Below, piece by piece: positions 7,554 through 43,301 of a DNA stretch of 64,000 nt (position 1 is the stretch's first letter; each line of letters opens with the position of its first letter). Below the pieces are notes generated by a model. The model had not been told where the DNA came from, did not search any database, and was given only the letters and a program-made list of their open reading frames with translations. Origin of the DNA: a bacterium (GTDB lineage Bacteria > Actinomycetota > Acidimicrobiia > Acidimicrobiales > CATQHL01); assembly GCA_026708055.1 (NCBI GenBank), contig JAPOVS010000060.1, positions 1 through 64,000 on the forward strand, read 5' to 3'. A program made the translations under genes and the position numbers.

Positions 7554-8888
7554 TCAGTCGGTGTTGACGTGGAGGCCGTCGTAGTAGACGTGTTGCTTCT
7601 CGAAGCGCTGCTGGATGCGGTCGGGCATGGGGGTGAGGTCGACTTGGCGGCCGGCTTGCATGACCATCTTGAGCAGCTTGCGGCGGCCGAGCACGGAGAT
7701 GTCCTTGGAGGGGTCGCCGTCGACCACGATGACGTCGGCGAGCTTTCCGGGCTCCAGGCTGCCGATCTCGTGCTCCCAGCGGGGGAGCGTGACCGCTGCC
7801 TTCGACGTGCCGCACGAGATCGCCTCGATCGGCGTGAGACCGCAGTGCGTGACCAGGATCTCCATCTCCTTGTGGTGCCAGTGGCCGTAGGGGGTCAGTG
7901 AGAAGCCGGACTCCGATCCGGCGATGATGGGAACCCCGGCGTCGTAGGCCTGCCGGATGTTCTCGGCGCCCTCGTCGATCTCCCGCTTGAGCCCGTCGCG
8001 CGAGGCGGCCGACATCTCCGCGTCGAGCGCGTCGAGCGCGTTCACCAGCAGCGGCAGCGTCGGGCAGATCGGGATCTTCTTCTCGGCCACCACCTCCAGG
8101 CCCTCGTCGTCCATGAACGAGGCGTGCATGATCCAGTCGAAGCCCGCCTTGGCGGCGAACGTGACCGACTCCGCAGAGCGGGCGTGAATCGTGCACTTCC
8201 TGCCCAGCCGGTGTACCTCGTCGGCGAGCAGTTCCAGTTCGTCGAGGCGGAACGAGCAGCCGACCAGCGGGTTGTAGTAGCTGGTGGCGTCGCCGGAGCC
8301 GGCGACCTTGACGAAATCCACGGTGTCCTTGATCTGCAACCGCACGGTCTCGAGGATCTCGTCCTTGTTGCGCACCAGGACGCTGGCGTTGCCGACCGGG
8401 TTCTCGATCCAGTTGGGGAAGGCGTCGCCGAGCCCCTGATGGGTCGTGATCTCCGGTCCGGCCACGCAGAAGCGCGGCCCCTCCACGAGCCCGGCGTCGA
8501 CGGCGTCGCGCACGGCGATCGGCACGCGGTACACCGCCGCGGGATCCGAAGCGCTCGTGACGCCGGCGCGCAGGACCTTCCCGGCGTTGTAGCCGGCGAG
8601 GATGGCCCGCCACTCGGCGGAGCCGTACATCGCCAGCTCCTCCTCGCTGCGCGGCTCGCCGTAGGAGATGTGGCAGTGCGCATCCACGATGCCGGGCAGG
8701 ACCGAGCCGTTCCCGGCGTCGATCACCTCGGCCGCGTCGTTCTGCTTCCATTGCTCGGGCAGGTCGTCCTTCGGGCCGACCCAGGCGATGCGGTCGCCGA
8801 GCACCGCCACAGCGCCGTCCTCGATGGCCGGCGCGCCGGTGCCGTCGATCACCCGCCCGTAGAAGAGGTACTCATCGGATCCGCTCAT
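7554..8888 (-). CDS. Metal-dependent amidohydrolase (imidazolonepropionase-like), paralog 1
   Basis: A 444-residue TIM-barrel hydrolase likely acting on a cyclic amide or amidine. Visible metal-site elements are DAHCHISYGE (HxH), a Lys candidate for carbamylation in DFVKVAGSGD, and later His in CTIHARS and IMHASFMD. The C-terminal metal-ligand block, usually GTDxG, reads AGSESGFS with Glu. The paralog at 11387 has the same change. The ATG at 8888 overlaps the upstream stop (ATGA), giving translational coupling. It is the last gene of the minus-strand catabolic operon. The substrate is unknown. Confidence 0.8.
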   Translation of the reverse strand: MSGSDEYLFYGRVIDGTGAPAIEDGAVAVLGDRIAWVGPKDDLPEQWKQNDAAEVIDAGNGSVLPGIVDAHCHISYGEPRSEEELAMYGSAEWRAILAGYNAGKVLRAGVTSASDPAAVYRVPIAVRDAVDAGLVEGPRFCVAGPEITTHQGLGDAFPNWIENPVGNASVLVRNKDEILETVRLQIKDTVDFVKVAGSGDATSYYNPLVGCSFRLDELELLADEVHRLGRKCTIHARSAESVTFAAKAGFDWIMHASFMDDEGLEVVAEKKIPICPTLPLLVNALDALDAEMSAASRDGLKREIDEGAENIRQAYDAGVPIIAGSESGFSLTPYGHWHHKEMEILVTHCGLTPIEAISCGTSKAAVTLPRWEHEIGSLEPGKLADVIVVDGDPSKDISVLGRRKLLKMVMQAGRQVDLTPMPDRIQQRFEKQHVYYDGLHVNTD

Positions 8889-30208: not shown

Positions 30209-30256
30209 GCCTGCAGGGTCGAGCGGGCAACGCCTGGCTGTCGCTGGCCAGCCGCG

Positions 30257-30555
30257 GGCCCGGTGGCCGGTGCCGGGGTTCCGCCGGCGCAGTGGATCCC
30301 GGCTTTCGCCGGGATGACGAGGTGGGTGCAAGTGTCACTGGGGCCCGGCGGCCGGTGCCGGGGTTCCGCCGGCGCAGTGGATCCCGGCTTTCGCCGGGAT
30401 GACGAGGTGGGTGCAAGTGTCACTGGGGCCCGGCGGCCGGTGCCGGGGTTCCGCCGGCGCAGTGGATCCCGGCTTTCGCCGGGATGACGAGGTGGGTGCA
30501 AGTGTCACTGGGGCCCGGCGGCTAGTGCCGGAGGTGCCGCTGGGCGGTGGATTCC
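30257..30555. repeat. 85-bp tandem repeat, three copies plus a degenerate fourth
   Basis: The word tgccgggg recurs at 30271, 30356 and 30441, and a decayed form at 30526, giving an exact period of 85 bases. Each unit contains ggatcccggctttcgccggg, a hairpin like the REP elements elsewhere. Copies two and three are essentially identical, so expansion is recent. It occupies the space between nagB and the convergent methyltransferase-glycosylase gene; no gene lies within it. Confidence 0.9.
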
Positions 30556-30607
30556 GGCTTTCGTCGGGATGACGAGAGTGCGTGCGCGGTCAGTGGTGTT
30601 CAGCGTG

Positions 30608-37326: not shown

Positions 37327-37401
37327 GTGGGGATGCCGGGGGCAAGCGCAGGCGTGCCATTTTCAGAGGCCGCCGGAGCGCCACCGGCATCCGCACCCGG
37401 A
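37327..37401. repeat. Right arm of the 75-bp inverted repeat
   Basis: Reverse complement of 35982-36056 with five or so substitutions. It lies between the M20 gene and the LLM oxidoreductase gene at 37443. Confidence 0.8.
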
Positions 37402-37442
37402 CACCCGCGGACCACCGGCAGCCCCACCCGGACAACCGCGGG

Positions 37443-38677: not shown

Positions 38678-39142
38678 TTAGTTCTGCGAGTTCTGCGTTT
38701 CGTCCGGTGGAGTTGTTCGGTAGATCGGGCCCCGGTCGATCACCTCGTCGAGGAGTCCCTCCTCGATGTAGGCCGGAAGCTCCCCGATGTCGATGCGGAG
38801 TGCCTCCTGACCCGCGTAGTGAAGCAGTTTCCTGACTTCGGTGCTGATGTAGTAGCCGCCGAGCACCAGGACCATGAGCGCACCGAAGCCGTCGGGATCG
38901 GTGGCGGCGAGTTGCTCGAGCACCTCGGGGCTGGGAGGGTCGGCGCAGGCGGTCACGGCGCGCCGGCAGTCGGCGGCCAGGTCGGGTCGGGCCCGCAGCG
39001 CCTTGTCCAGGAGTTCCCCGGCGATCCCCACGGAGCTGGCCGCGGGCATCTCCCGGTAGGCCGGCACCAGCACGTCGGCGATGCGTGCCAGCCGGGCGCG
39101 GAACGCCTCGTCGAAGTCCTCGGGGCGCCGCGGGTCGGTCAC
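38678..39142 (-). CDS. Gluconate 2-dehydrogenase subunit 3-like small subunit
   Basis: A 154-residue helical protein (ARIADVLVPAYREMPAASSV, VLGGYYISTEVRKLLHYAGQ) directly downstream of a GMC oxidoreductase, the usual arrangement of small subunits that help export or assemble GMC dehydrogenases. GTG at 39142 is chosen because the longer in-frame extension to 39244 is merely the translated REP element (VIPAQAGIQ) and is not expected to be protein. No clear Tat signal is visible in the retained part. Confidence 0.65.
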   Translation of the reverse strand: MTDPRRPEDFDEAFRARLARIADVLVPAYREMPAASSVGIAGELLDKALRARPDLAADCRRAVTACADPPSPEVLEQLAATDPDGFGALMVLVLGGYYISTEVRKLLHYAGQEALRIDIGELPAYIEEGLLDEVIDRGPIYRTTPPDETQNSQN

Positions 39143-39169
39143 GGCAACCGCCGCGGTGGCTGCCGGCGC

Positions 39170-39199
39170 CTGGATTCCGGCTTGCGCCGGAATGACGAC
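39170..39199. repeat. REP-like element, short form
   Basis: ctggattccggc ttgc gccggaatgacgac hairpin between the GMC gene and its small subunit gene. Confidence 0.65.
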
Positions 39200-39281
39200 G
39201 TGTGCGTCGTCGTGGCTTGGGAGTGCGGGGGGTGAACCGACCACGGCGATCGTCTTCGTCCGACTGGCGAGCGCGGGGTCC

Positions 39282-40880
39282 TCATGGCACCCGCTGCTGC
39301 CGGCGCGTCTCGATCAGGCGCTCCGTGGCCCGGAGGGCCAGCGCGGAGATCGTGGCGGTGGGGTTGACACCCCCGGAGGTGACGAAGACGCTGCCGTCGA
39401 TCACGTACAGATTCTCGACGTCGTGGCTCCGGCACCAGCGGTCCACGACGGAGCACTCCGGATCGTCGCCCATCCGGGCCGTGCCGAGGAGGTGCCAACC
39501 GGTGCCCCGCACCTGCGGGGTGACGACCGTCTCGTAGGCGCCCGCCTCGCTGAGCGACTCGGCGGCCCGGGCCGCCTGGAAACTCAGCAGCCGCCGGGAG
39601 TTCTCCGACACCCGGTACTGGATCCGGGGTGCCGGGACGCCGTCGGGGTCTGCCAACTCACCGTCGAGGGTCACCCGGTTGGCGTCGTCGGGCAGGTCCT
39701 CGCCGATGATGCCCCACATGATCGAGTGGCCGAGGTTCGTGCGGACCCGCTCGTGCAGCGCGGTGCCCCAGACCGGGTCGCCGCCGAAACCCAGGGCGGC
39801 GCCCAGCGGCCCGCCCGTGGGTTGCAGCCCCCACTTGGCGCCGCGCACGAAGTCCCGTCGGGGGTCGGTCTCGTAGAACTCCATGCACTGCAGGCTCTGG
39901 CCCCAGTGCCCCTGCCAACTCGGCCAGTGGCGGTCGAACAGCCCGATCACGGTGCCGAACGGATGCATCATGAGCCGCTTGCCGACGAGGCCGGAGCGGT
40001 TGGCCAGGCCGTCGGGGAAGCCGGTGCTCGTCGAGAGCAGCAGCAGGCGGGGTGTCCCGATGCCGTTGGCCGCCACGAGCACGACCGATGCCGGCTGGTG
40101 CCGCTCGTGGCCGTCGCGGTCCACGTAGATCGCGCCGGTGGCGAGGCCGCGGGCATCGAGCGTGATCTGGCGCACCCGGGCACCGGTCACGAGGCGCGCA
40201 CCGAAGCGCTCGGCGTCCGGCCAGTGGGTCTGGTCGGTGGAGCCCTTGGCGCCCTCCCCGCAGCCCCAGGCGCAGGTGCCGCGCTGGACGCAGGGCCGCC
40301 GCCCCCGGTAGCGCCGGGAGGCGATGGCGTTGGTGCCGGGCCACCAGTGCCAGCCGAGACGGTTGTGCGCCCGGGCGATGTCGGTGGCCACCTCGGGTAA
40401 GGGCAGCGGGGGCAGGGGAGGCTCGGCTCCCGGCGGGTAGGCGGGATCGCCGCCGATCCCCGAGACGCCGAAGTCGACGTCGGAGCGTTCGTAGTAGGGC
40501 TGGAGCTCCTCGTAGGTCAGGGGCCAGTCGTCGGCCACGCCGTCGAGGGTGCGGACCCTGAAGTCCGACGGCGCCAGGCGGGGCCACTGCGCGGCGAACT
40601 GCACGGTGCTGCCGCCCACGCCGTTGAACATGAGCGGGTCGATGTCGGACTCGCTGACCTCGACGGGATAGTCGGCGCGCGCCCGGCGGATGTTCGGGTC
40701 CCAGGTCCACTGTTTGAGCCCGGTGAGCTCCCAGTCGTCGTAGGCGCCGCGGTAGGCGCCCGGATCGGACCGCTCGCCCTGCTCGAGGCACACCACGTCG
40801 AACCCCGCCTCGGCGAGGCGCCGGGAGGCGACCGCTCCCGAGGCGCCGGCCCCGATGATCAGGACGTCGGCCGCGCTCAC
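39282..40880 (-). CDS. GMC-family FAD oxidoreductase
   Basis: A 532-residue glucose-methanol-choline oxidoreductase. The FAD site is VLIIGAGASGAVASRRLAEAG, the substrate-side motif is FNGVGGSTVQFAAQWPR, and the C-terminal catalytic His and Asn are in GWHLLGTARMG and GGVNPTATI. It oxidises an alcohol or sugar, probably passing electrons through the small subunit at 38678. GTG start at 40880 overlaps the stop of a 25-codon mini-ORF (GTGA) derived from duplication of its own junction with the upstream LLM gene. Confidence 0.9.
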   Translation of the reverse strand: MSAADVLIIGAGASGAVASRRLAEAGFDVVCLEQGERSDPGAYRGAYDDWELTGLKQWTWDPNIRRARADYPVEVSESDIDPLMFNGVGGSTVQFAAQWPRLAPSDFRVRTLDGVADDWPLTYEELQPYYERSDVDFGVSGIGGDPAYPPGAEPPLPPLPLPEVATDIARAHNRLGWHWWPGTNAIASRRYRGRRPCVQRGTCAWGCGEGAKGSTDQTHWPDAERFGARLVTGARVRQITLDARGLATGAIYVDRDGHERHQPASVVLVAANGIGTPRLLLLSTSTGFPDGLANRSGLVGKRLMMHPFGTVIGLFDRHWPSWQGHWGQSLQCMEFYETDPRRDFVRGAKWGLQPTGGPLGAALGFGGDPVWGTALHERVRTNLGHSIMWGIIGEDLPDDANRVTLDGELADPDGVPAPRIQYRVSENSRRLLSFQAARAAESLSEAGAYETVVTPQVRGTGWHLLGTARMGDDPECSVVDRWCRSHDVENLYVIDGSVFVTSGGVNPTATISALALRATERLIETRRQQRVP

Positions 40881-40954
40881 GTGACCGCCGGGATGATGTG
40901 GGATCCGAACACGTCGATCAGGTCCAGGGGGATCAGGACGTCGGTCACGCTCAC
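40877..40954 (-). other. Mini-ORF, 25 codons, GTGA-linked to GMC start
   Basis: GTG at 40954 encodes MSVTDVLIPLDLIDVFGSHI then IPAVT and a TGA. Its stop overlaps the GMC GTG (40880-40878), and its start overlaps the TGA of the preceding frame. It is a chimera of GMC codons 1-8 and LLM C-terminal codons, probably functioning only as a translational bridge. Confidence 0.5.
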
Positions 40955-40986
40955 GTGACCGCCGGGATGATGTCGGATCCGAACAC
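40951..40986 (-). other. Mini-ORF, 11 codons
   Basis: An in-frame GTG at 40986 encodes MFGSDIIPAVT; its TGA overlaps the GTG of the 25-codon frame (GTGA). The start is 20 bases after the previous mini-ORF stop, so reinitiation is plausible but unproven. Confidence 0.3.
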
Positions 40987-41006
40987 GTCGATCAGGCCCA
41001 GGGGGA

Positions 41007-41042
41007 TCAGGCCCAGGGGGTCAGGACGTCGGTCGCGCTCAC
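41007..41042 (-). other. Mini-ORF, 11 codons, GTGA-linked to LLM stop
   Basis: GTG at 41042 overlaps the LLM stop (41041-41039) and encodes MSATDVLTPWA before TGA. The first seven codons mimic the GMC start. Confidence 0.4.
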
Positions 41043-42067
41043 GTGACCGCCGGGATGATGTGGGATCCGAACACGTCGATCAGGCCCAGGGGCAGCTCGT
41101 AGGACGGGAAGCCGCGGATGTAGAAGTTCCTGACACCTGCGTCGCGGGCCCGGCGGATCTTCTCGGTGCACTCGGCGGCCGTGCCCACGACGCAGAACCG
41201 CTCGGCGTAGCGGCGGCCGTCGGTGTCGCTCACCCAGCGTCCGGCCACCTCGGCGGCGTGCATCCAGTCCTCGGCGTGGGTCATGTCGGGGTACACGTCG
41301 GGCACGACAGCGGGAACGTCGATCTCGATCCCGGCGAGTTGCAGGGCGCCGGTCGCGCCGACCTGAGCCAGGCCCACGCAGACCGGTTTGGCGACCCGGG
41401 CCGCCTCGGTCGGGTCGTCGGTGATGTGGCAGAACGTCCCGACGCAGATGTCCAGATCCTCGAGTGACCGCCCGGCGCGCGCCGCGCCGTCGCGGATGTG
41501 GCCGAGCGCCCGCTCGACCAGCGGCTGGGCGAGCCCGGCCAGCACGATGACCCCGTCGGCGATCTCGCCGGCCAGTTGCAGGGCCTTCGGGCCGGTGGCG
41601 GCCATGTAGACCGGCACCGGAGTGGGCACCTTGCCGTGGAGGTGGATCTCCCGCCCGCCGTAGTCCGCCGGATGGCCGTCGAGAAGCCGGCGCACGGCGC
41701 CGATGTTGCGGCGCATCTCGGCCAGGCGAGTCGGCTTCATGTCCAGCAGCTTGATGGCGCTGTCGCCGCTGCCCACACCGAGGATCGTGCGCCCGGGGGC
41801 GACCTCGGCGACGGTGCGGGTGGCGGCCGCGGTCACGCTCGGGTGCCGGGTCTCGAAGGTCGTGACACACGAGCCGACCCGGATGTTCCGGGTCTCGAGC
41901 GCGGCCACCGCAAGCGTCGCCCAGACGTCGCGCCAGAGGAACTGCGAGTCCGGGTACCAGGCGATGTCGAACCCGGCCTCCTCGGCCATCCGGGCCGCGG
42001 CGCCAGCCGTCCGGACATCGGTGCAGGGGGGTAGGCGGATTCCGAAGACGGGTGCCGGTGCGCTCAC
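41039..42067 (-). CDS. LLM-class (F420-type) oxidoreductase
   Basis: A 342-residue luciferase-fold protein similar to coenzyme F420-dependent methylene-tetrahydromethanopterin-reductase-like enzymes (FGIRLPPCTDVRTAG, GVGSGDSAIKLLDMKPTRLAE, PVYMAATGPKALQLAGEIAD). GTG start at 42067 overlaps the stop of a six-codon mini-ORF; the stop at 41039 overlaps the next mini-ORF. It lies between an ABC permease and a GMC oxidoreductase in one minus-strand operon. F420 versus FMN cannot be decided by eye. Confidence 0.85.
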   Translation of the reverse strand: MSAPAPVFGIRLPPCTDVRTAGAAARMAEEAGFDIAWYPDSQFLWRDVWATLAVAALETRNIRVGSCVTTFETRHPSVTAAATRTVAEVAPGRTILGVGSGDSAIKLLDMKPTRLAEMRRNIGAVRRLLDGHPADYGGREIHLHGKVPTPVPVYMAATGPKALQLAGEIADGVIVLAGLAQPLVERALGHIRDGAARAGRSLEDLDICVGTFCHITDDPTEAARVAKPVCVGLAQVGATGALQLAGIEIDVPAVVPDVYPDMTHAEDWMHAAEVAGRWVSDTDGRRYAERFCVVGTAAECTEKIRRARDAGVRNFYIRGFPSYELPLGLIDVFGSHIIPAVT

Positions 42068-42114
42068 TTGCCGGGATCGCTCACTCAGAGGTCGCTCACT
42101 TGAAGGGCGCTCAC
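42064..42114 (-). other. Chain of two mini-ORFs bridging permease and LLM genes
   Basis: The permease stop (42113-42111) overlaps GTG 42114, which encodes MSALQVSDL to a TGA at 42087-42085. The next GTG (42084) abuts that stop and encodes MSDPGK to TGA 42066-42064, which overlaps the LLM start GTG 42067. The hexamer GTGAGC recurs four times at 15-17 base spacing. No base between the two large genes is left untranslated, and no separate ribosome site is seen. Confidence 0.55.
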
Positions 42115-43040
42115 TTGAAGAGATACAGGGGACGGCCCTCCTCGCGCGGCGGCAGCACCTTCCGGCCCGAGACGGCGATGGCGACGATCGTCACGATGTA
42201 GGGCAGGGCCAGCAGCAACTCGCCGGCCACGGGGATGTCCCGGGCCTGGAGCTGGAATCCGAGGGCGTAGGACGCGCCGAAGATCACCGCGGCCGCCGCC
42301 GCACCCGATGGGTTCCAGCGTCCCAGGATCACGATGGCGATGGCGATGTAGCCGCGCCCGCGCACGATGTCGTGCAGGAAGAGGCGGATGTCGGCCAGGA
42401 CCATGTAGGCGCCGGCGAGGCCACCGAGAATGCCGCTGACCGTCATCGCCACGAGGCGGACCCGCAGCACGTTGACCCCGGTGGCCTGGGCGCCCTCGGC
42501 GTACTCCCCGCAGGCGCGCAGGCGGATCCCGACGCCCGTCCTGAACAGCACGTACCACGCCACGGGAACACACAGGTAGGTGAGGTAGGCCATCCAGTGC
42601 TGATCGGCCAGCACGCCGATGCCGGGAATGGCCGCCAGCCCGGGAATGCGCTGCGTGAACGAGCCCCGCGGGACGGACATGGCCTCCAACCCGCCGCGGC
42701 GGATCAGCACGTCGAACAGGTAGCTGGTGACGCCGAGAGCCAGGATGTTGAAGGCGATCCCCACGACGACCTGGTCCCCCCGCAACCCCACCGTGATCCA
42801 GCCCAGGAGCAGCCCGAAGACGGCGCCGAACAGCAGCGCGAACCAGAACCCCGCCTGCTCCGCGCCGAAGGAGGCGGCGGCCCAGGCCGCCACCCAGGCA
42901 CCGACCAGCATCAACCCCTCCAGGCCGATGTTGAGCACGCCCGAGCGCTGGGCGATCACACCCCCGAGCGCGGCGAGCAGCAGCGGGACGCCCGCCACCA
43001 CCGTGGCGTTCAGGACGTCACCCACGTGACGGATCCTCAC
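42111..43040 (-). CDS. ABC transporter permease (BMP type, YufQ-like), second system
   Basis: A 309-residue hydrophobic permease with the family block GVLNIGLEGLMLVGAWVAAW and YIAIAIVILGRWNPSGAAAAA. It corresponds to the second permease of a BMP-type importer. Its ATPase, binding protein and first permease are on the opposite strand at 45346-49128, so it probably completes that system. GTG/ATG region start at 43040. It heads the minus-strand operon 43040 to 36110 that also encodes the enzymes. Confidence 0.85.
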   Translation of the reverse strand: MRIRHVGDVLNATVVAGVPLLLAALGGVIAQRSGVLNIGLEGLMLVGAWVAAWAAASFGAEQAGFWFALLFGAVFGLLLGWITVGLRGDQVVVGIAFNILALGVTSYLFDVLIRRGGLEAMSVPRGSFTQRIPGLAAIPGIGVLADQHWMAYLTYLCVPVAWYVLFRTGVGIRLRACGEYAEGAQATGVNVLRVRLVAMTVSGILGGLAGAYMVLADIRLFLHDIVRGRGYIAIAIVILGRWNPSGAAAAAVIFGASYALGFQLQARDIPVAGELLLALPYIVTIVAIAVSGRKVLPPREEGRPLYLFK

Positions 43041-43301
43041 TCACGGGACGGCTCCTCGCCCGATCTGAACCCGGTCTTCCGGGACCGGCATTCCCCCCAT
43101 GCGGCGAATACTACAGATCACTTTCGGCGCCGTTGCCGAAGCCACCGATCCGGCCGGCGCCGGACCGCTGCACCGCGCCACCGGTGGCCTTCCCGCCGCG
43201 GCTCCCCGCCGGCGGCCGATCGGTCGGGGCGGTTCGCGGCGCCGGCGCATTATTCCGGCCACAGTGCCCGGTGTATAGTCCCCCGGCGGGGGAGTTCGGG
43301 T
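43041..43301. promoter_or_regulatory. Divergent promoter region
   Basis: 261 bases without genes separate the divergent permease and hydrolase operons. On the plus strand TATAGT (43274-43279) is a reasonable -10 hexamer and ggcgggggag precedes the ATG at 43302. No convincing -35 or operator palindrome was found. Coordinated control of the split transporter from here is inferred. Confidence 0.4.

Follow-up and report, generated by a model that had tools for sequence, protein, structure and literature searches.

The closest described systems to the gene junction considered here include the mycobacterial interspersed repetitive units (MIRUs), which were reportedly described by Supply et al. in 1997. 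In the excerpted account of PMC12548453, a MIRU holds an internal ORF with -4 coupling, so that insertion of the repeat does little damage. A second system is termination-reinitiation coupling at 4-nt overlaps; for E. coli gene pairs the passages available from PMC10666635 report that a gap of +14 nt cuts reinitiation by 40-80% and that one of +38 nt nearly abolishes it. Finally, there are the minisatellites or VNTRs, products of slipped-strand duplication. What becomes of a coupled gene pair when the DNA across its overlap is itself duplicated?

The window, the stretch of 64,000 nucleotides that was analysed, carries on its minus strand an operon in which a luciferase-like monooxygenase gene (LLM; 41039..42067, PF00296 E=1.5e-56, GTG start at 42067) lies downstream of an ABC-type permease gene (42111..43025, PF02653 E=4.8e-38) and upstream of a GMC oxidoreductase gene (39282..40880, PF05199/PF00732), the GTG start of which, at 40880, falls within the last of several GTGA motifs. 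The genes were called with a home-made caller and all starts are predicted. The luciferase-like monooxygenase family has 24 matches in the 3.9-Mb genome from which the window derives, three of them inside the window at 37.5-45.1 kb. The LLM-end/GMC-start junction is occupied by a tandem array (40857..41092, minus strand) of three copies with periods of 88 and 74 bp, so that the triplication claimed in a preliminary description, made from the letters of the window, is confirmed in the assembly. TRF scores this array at 282 for period 74 and 326 for period 88, with 95% matches, and a repeat search of the assembly returns three 83-nt copies at spacings of 74 and 88 with 89-93% identity to the reference copy. 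GTGA occurs at 41042 (41042-41039, the LLM end), 40954 and 40880 (the GMC start), with spacings of 88 and 74 bp, and the outer links are as first reported, with 4-nt overlaps between the GTG at 41042 and the LLM stop and between the mini-ORF from 40954 and the GMC start.

The series of short frames across such a junction is here called a relay where mini-ORFs joined by -4 or -1 overlaps end on the in-frame start of the downstream gene. Each unit of the array had been described as an open fusion of the GMC start to the LLM end. This holds for mini-ORF 2 (40877..40954, minus strand), which runs for 25 aa (VSVTDVLIPLDLIDVFGSHIIPAVT, then stop), but not for the first unit, where mini-ORF 1 (41007..41042, minus strand; 11 aa, VSATDVLTPWA) starts on a GTG in a 4-nt overlap with the LLM stop and is truncated. 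Its frame is shifted by a lost base together with a 15-bp sub-repeat of 2.5 copies, found by TRF within the middle copy (40990..41025, minus strand), and it meets a stop at 41007, leaving the first relay link of the window broken under ATG, GTG or TTG starts. A CTG at 41010 opens a 19-aa frame, LIPLGLIDVFGSDIIPAVT, on the same strand (40951..41010), which overlaps the mini-ORF 1 stop by 4 nt (CTGA) and ends on the GTGA at 40954. CTG start codons are rare, so a rescue of the first link by this candidate is a speculative possibility; given the break, the GMC gene of the window would need either such a CTG start or independent initiation. Recombination at CTGATC, the mechanism first suggested for the array, is partly borne out, as this motif flanks the 15-bp sub-duplication, but at the 74-bp breakpoint, read by eye, the base that follows CTGATC in the GMC head is joined to a CCC(C/G) lying 9 bp ahead of the CTGATC of the LLM tail, so that the exchange is not of the CTGATC x CTGATC kind. 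A C/G variant near the LLM end gives His in the LLM and mini-ORF 2 of the window and in the mini-ORF of a related genome, G006, and Asp elsewhere, a pattern which suggests that sequence may have been exchanged between junction copies. With this variant excepted, the seven copies that were aligned do not differ over the 33 nt that end with GTGA, in contrast to the 21% difference at 4-fold sites between G006 and the window's own genome, G000.

The relatives, like the window's own genome, are represented by metagenome assemblies. LLM orthologues at 92-94% identity are present in three further genomes of its genus (g1; G002, G004 and G006), and one at 73% identity in G008, a sister genus that serves as outgroup, with distant matches only in the four other genus members searched. 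The closest pair is G000 and G006, with a nucleotide identity of 0.924 and a 4-fold-site difference of 0.207, as against 0.217-0.305 in other g1 pairs (five genes compared in each case). The LLM/GMC junction is a single 4-nt overlap in G002, G004 and G008, has two copies in G006 and three in the window; the ancestral state was thus one NTGA stop/start overlap of 4 nt. The G006 array has the same 74-bp unit and the same breakpoint as the window, and its mini-ORF is intact, with 25 aa and a -4 (GTGA) overlap with both LLM and GMC. The comparison places the 74-bp duplication in an ancestor shared by the window species and G006, where a single origin would suffice since the two are nearest neighbours with breakpoint and unit in common. 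The window lineage gained a further copy, and its first link is broken because this extra copy is imperfect. An expanded homologous operon lacking open mini-ORFs had been named as evidence that would count against the interpretation first offered, and in G006 the expansion retains one. That the array is an artefact of a metagenome-assembled genome is barely credible. A typical short read is longer than the repeat period, and the G006 assembly stands at ~4x coverage, yet the copies differ from one another, and the presence of the same 74-bp unit and breakpoint in G006, an independently assembled genome, argues against such an origin.

How does this junction compare with the described systems? 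It resembles MIRUs, as far as these are set out in the excerpts available, in having short junction repeats, an ORF -4 coupled to a neighbouring gene and tandem copies that vary in number; the G006 mini-ORF is coupled in this way on both sides, and mini-ORF 2 of the window on the GMC side. In the same excerpts, however, MIRUs are dispersed and apparently mobile, whereas the LLM/GMC unit is a copy of both flanking gene ends found at its own locus. When the genome of the window was searched with the unit as DNA query, the LLM/GMC array was the only match, and the unit consists of LLM tail and GMC head, each present once in the single-copy orthologues, rather than of foreign or mobile sequence. 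Membership of a MIRU-type family was rejected on these two grounds: by comparison with the description of MIRUs, as distinct from their sequences, the layout operates in the manner of a MIRU without being one. The likeness to termination-reinitiation coupling, as presented in the accessible part of PMC10666635, lies in the NTGA overlaps of the retained links and of the ancestral junction, the latter seen in G002, G004 and G008, and the difference is that LLM/GMC coupling appears to be routed through one or more interposed mini-ORFs derived from duplication of the junction. As in a minisatellite, the copies are head-to-tail, imperfect and variable in number among relatives, but the array sits exactly across the stop/start overlap and carries relay frames. 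Within those portions of the literature that the search reached, no description of junction duplication with relay mini-ORFs was recognised.

The explanation that we regard as probable is that ordinary tandem duplication yields variants, of which selection for translational coupling would keep mostly those that form relays. The ancestral 4-nt LLM-GMC overlap (GTGA/ATGA) would have coupled the translation of the two genes, and a 74-bp tandem duplication across it, arising through ordinary slippage or unequal exchange, would leave both proteins whole while creating a 25-codon mini-ORF, the start of which overlaps the LLM stop and the stop of which overlaps the GMC start. A terminating ribosome would then be handed on from LLM to mini-ORF to GMC, which presupposes that mini-ORFs are translated and that reinitiation takes place at every link. 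On the E. coli gap data, in the portion of PMC10666635 available, a gap of 70-158 bp should uncouple GMC unless ribosomes are carried over. Duplication of a junction would automatically supply a new stop/start at each end, with a carrying ORF expected in one frame out of three. At a 4-nt overlap, an inserted segment would uncouple the downstream gene unless a stop/start is rebuilt and the relay frame kept, and variants in the other frames would mostly be lost, such that the enlarged junctions found in g1 would mostly be relays.

The neighbouring junctions of the operon are enlarged as well. The permease/LLM junction (42060..42120, minus strand), which TRF and orthologue comparison resolve into four GTGA copies ~15-17 bp apart, is a single ATGA in G008, and the four g1 genomes each have an array of their own at this place, forming an unbroken relay in G004 (7+6 aa), G002 (16 aa) and G006 (6 aa). 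The window has 9+6 aa: the mini-ORF VSALQVSDL (42085..42114, minus strand) is followed by a GTG directly after its TGA, and VSDPGK (42064..42084, minus strand) ends on the GTGA of the LLM start. With one link being stop-then-start, with 0 nt between, this junction fails the strict relay test, and the caller had here set the LLM start too far downstream. The third enlarged junction (39139..39285, minus strand) lies between GMC and the 38678 gene, where orthologue comparison defines a 48-aa relay from the GMC stop (ATGA) to the GTGA start of the next gene at 39142. In G002 and G008 the genes overlap by 4 nt at this junction, and in all three enlarged genomes the junction is relayed at differing lengths, with 23 aa in G004 and 28+11 aa in G006. 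A local mutational hotspot that generates junction repeats in this operon, as first considered, could account for three successive junctions being enlarged in some species. It is nevertheless very improbable, as similar enlargements are found on other contigs (for instance C69, C46, C14 and C19 of G000), with units, lengths and breakpoints that are unlike and in some cases include a dispersed palindrome. For example, a 17-bp unit gives two 6-aa links in C69 of G000 where the orthologous G004 junction is a 4-nt overlap, and a 14-bp unit gives a 5-aa link in C34 of G004 where that of G000 is a 4-nt overlap. A hotspot limited to the LLM/GMC operon was consequently rejected as unnecessary after the genome samples, which constitute a partial survey.

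Several other repeats were recorded at or near gene ends. At L054 (C46 of G000, 7989-8209) a 107-bp duplication of a gene start has lost the frame of its first copy, and the G002 junction is a 4-nt overlap. A 31-bp unit is present in two copies at 37381-37441 of the window, in a 169-bp gap ahead of an M20 peptidase gene; the corresponding genes are 3-18 bp apart in G002 and G004. At the permease gene start (43018-43061, GTGAGTGAGGATCCGTCACGTGGGTGA) a 19-bp unit is repeated 2.3 times in a leader with several overlapping GTG/TGA, and this site was ruled out as an operon junction since the gene calls indicate a divergent/leader region. The dispersed palindrome of the enlarged junctions mentioned above, which is like GTCATTCCGGCGAAGGCCGGAATCCAG, occurs in several enlarged junctions, where the relay frame reads through it, as at L037:14740-14872 and in L064 of G006 near 1300-1366. 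The pattern was counted 36 times in 746 kb of G000, 10 times in 460 kb of G004 and 13 times in 168 kb of G002, and it was absent from the G008, G010 and G014 samples; the G006 variant escapes the pattern. We take it to resemble the dRS3-type palindromes of Neisseria, and a literature search with its letters gave no useful match. The palindrome GGATCCCGGCTTTCGCCGGGATGACG is part of an 85-bp unit present in 3.9 copies (TRF score 572) between convergent plus- and minus-strand genes at 30256-30585 of the window.

Are duplications attracted to coupled junctions? Within the family, stop-spanning tandem repeats were found at 9/653 operon junctions and at 6/254 convergent stops, as against 0/177 and 0/126 in two other families, and at random internal codons of the family no repeat of non-3n period was found (0/4120). 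TRF arrays in G000 have about equal density in other intergenic DNA (38 per 59.8 kb) and in junction gaps (5 per 6.7 kb). Gene ends in general therefore tolerate duplication, with somewhat more in this family than in others. As convergent stops carry repeats as often as operon junctions, duplication is not junction-specific, and coupling does not attract it; what is biased is the reading frame. Repeat detection, by TRF and stop-anchored self-alignment, was dropped as the main test because stop-spanning repeats are not confined to coupled junctions, and a reading-frame test was adopted for the same reason. These rates speak for pure neutral tolerance, whereby tandem duplications would arise at all sites and last at gene ends because no protein is damaged there, mini-ORFs are a by-product and GMC initiates from its own Shine-Dalgarno-like GGCGG. 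The broken first link of the window is also in keeping with this. Neutrality, however, predicts random frames.

The frames were assessed in samples of 746 kb of G000, 460 kb of G004, 168 kb of G002, 10 kb of G006 and 400 kb each of G008, G010 and G014. Among 157 orthologous junction groups (G000, G002, G004, G006 and G008), 22 have a 4-nt overlap and no gap >3, and 25 have a 4-nt overlap in one genome and a gap >3 in another. The test set, restricted to g1 members with a gap >3 and an upstream NTGA stop without N, comprised 21 instances in 15 groups. It left out groups enlarged in G008 alone or with a different stop context in the enlarged member, the G006 permease/LLM instance, which contains a run of N (its translation is the 6-aa relay given above), and the Bmp junction, where the -4 overlap in G000 seems to come from a miscalled start. 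The null took the observed frame and the shifted non-read-through frames as equally likely; a null from shifted frames alone omits the observed and read-through frames and was set aside as too low. Relays were found in 17/21 instances where 10.4 were expected (P=6e-4), and in 11/15 when one instance was taken per junction (6.4 expected, P=0.006); the samples are small, and a flat 1/2 null over the 15 junctions gives P=0.06. The four failures include two from the window, LLM/GMC and permease/LLM, the latter with its miscalled start. Without the requirement of orthology, and with orthologous junctions counted more than once, NTGA-bracketed junctions with gaps of 4-250 are relays in 34/46 cases in g1 (17/26, 12/15, 3/3 and 2/2), in 6/11 in G008 and, in two other families, in 0/1 (G010) and 2/9 (G014). 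Thus, enlarged g1 junctions hold bridging mini-ORFs in frame above expectation. This bias, and the GMC/38678-gene junction relayed in 3/3 enlarged genomes at differing lengths, make pure neutrality rather unlikely, and we infer selection as the source of the bias. Of the earlier interpretation, tolerance with coupling preserved is what these frames support; a local mutational mechanism is not needed, with convergent ends equally repeat-bearing and distant junctions enlarged too.

A different role for selection would be as the keeper of a rheostat, in which copy number is a regulatory setting, each added reinitiation step would lower the GMC:LLM ratio, and selection would maintain or adjust the number. 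LLM/GMC copy number does vary between species (1, 1, 2, 3), the permease/LLM junction is variable in all four, and the H/D variants among copies suggest sequence exchange, but such a setting sits poorly with the broken link of the window, and we consider it improbable. The retention of relay-forming duplicates, the reading preferred here, might also be extended to the operons of the whole lineage. On this broader proposal, which is possible but which we hold only tentatively, duplications or insertions of palindromic elements at 4-nt overlaps would be kept mainly where an unbroken relay is rebuilt, coupling would be passed on even as the DNA of the junction turns over, and the gene ratio may be tuned by how many steps the relay has.

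Should a larger survey bear out the relay bias, these genomes would constitute a natural experiment showing that selection acts in the wild on coupling at 4-nt overlaps. Operon genes 10-170 bp apart would then not necessarily be uncoupled, since mini-ORFs too short for annotation can bridge the gap, and both the use of intergenic distance in operon prediction and the interpretation of tiny ORFs at gene junctions would have to be revised.
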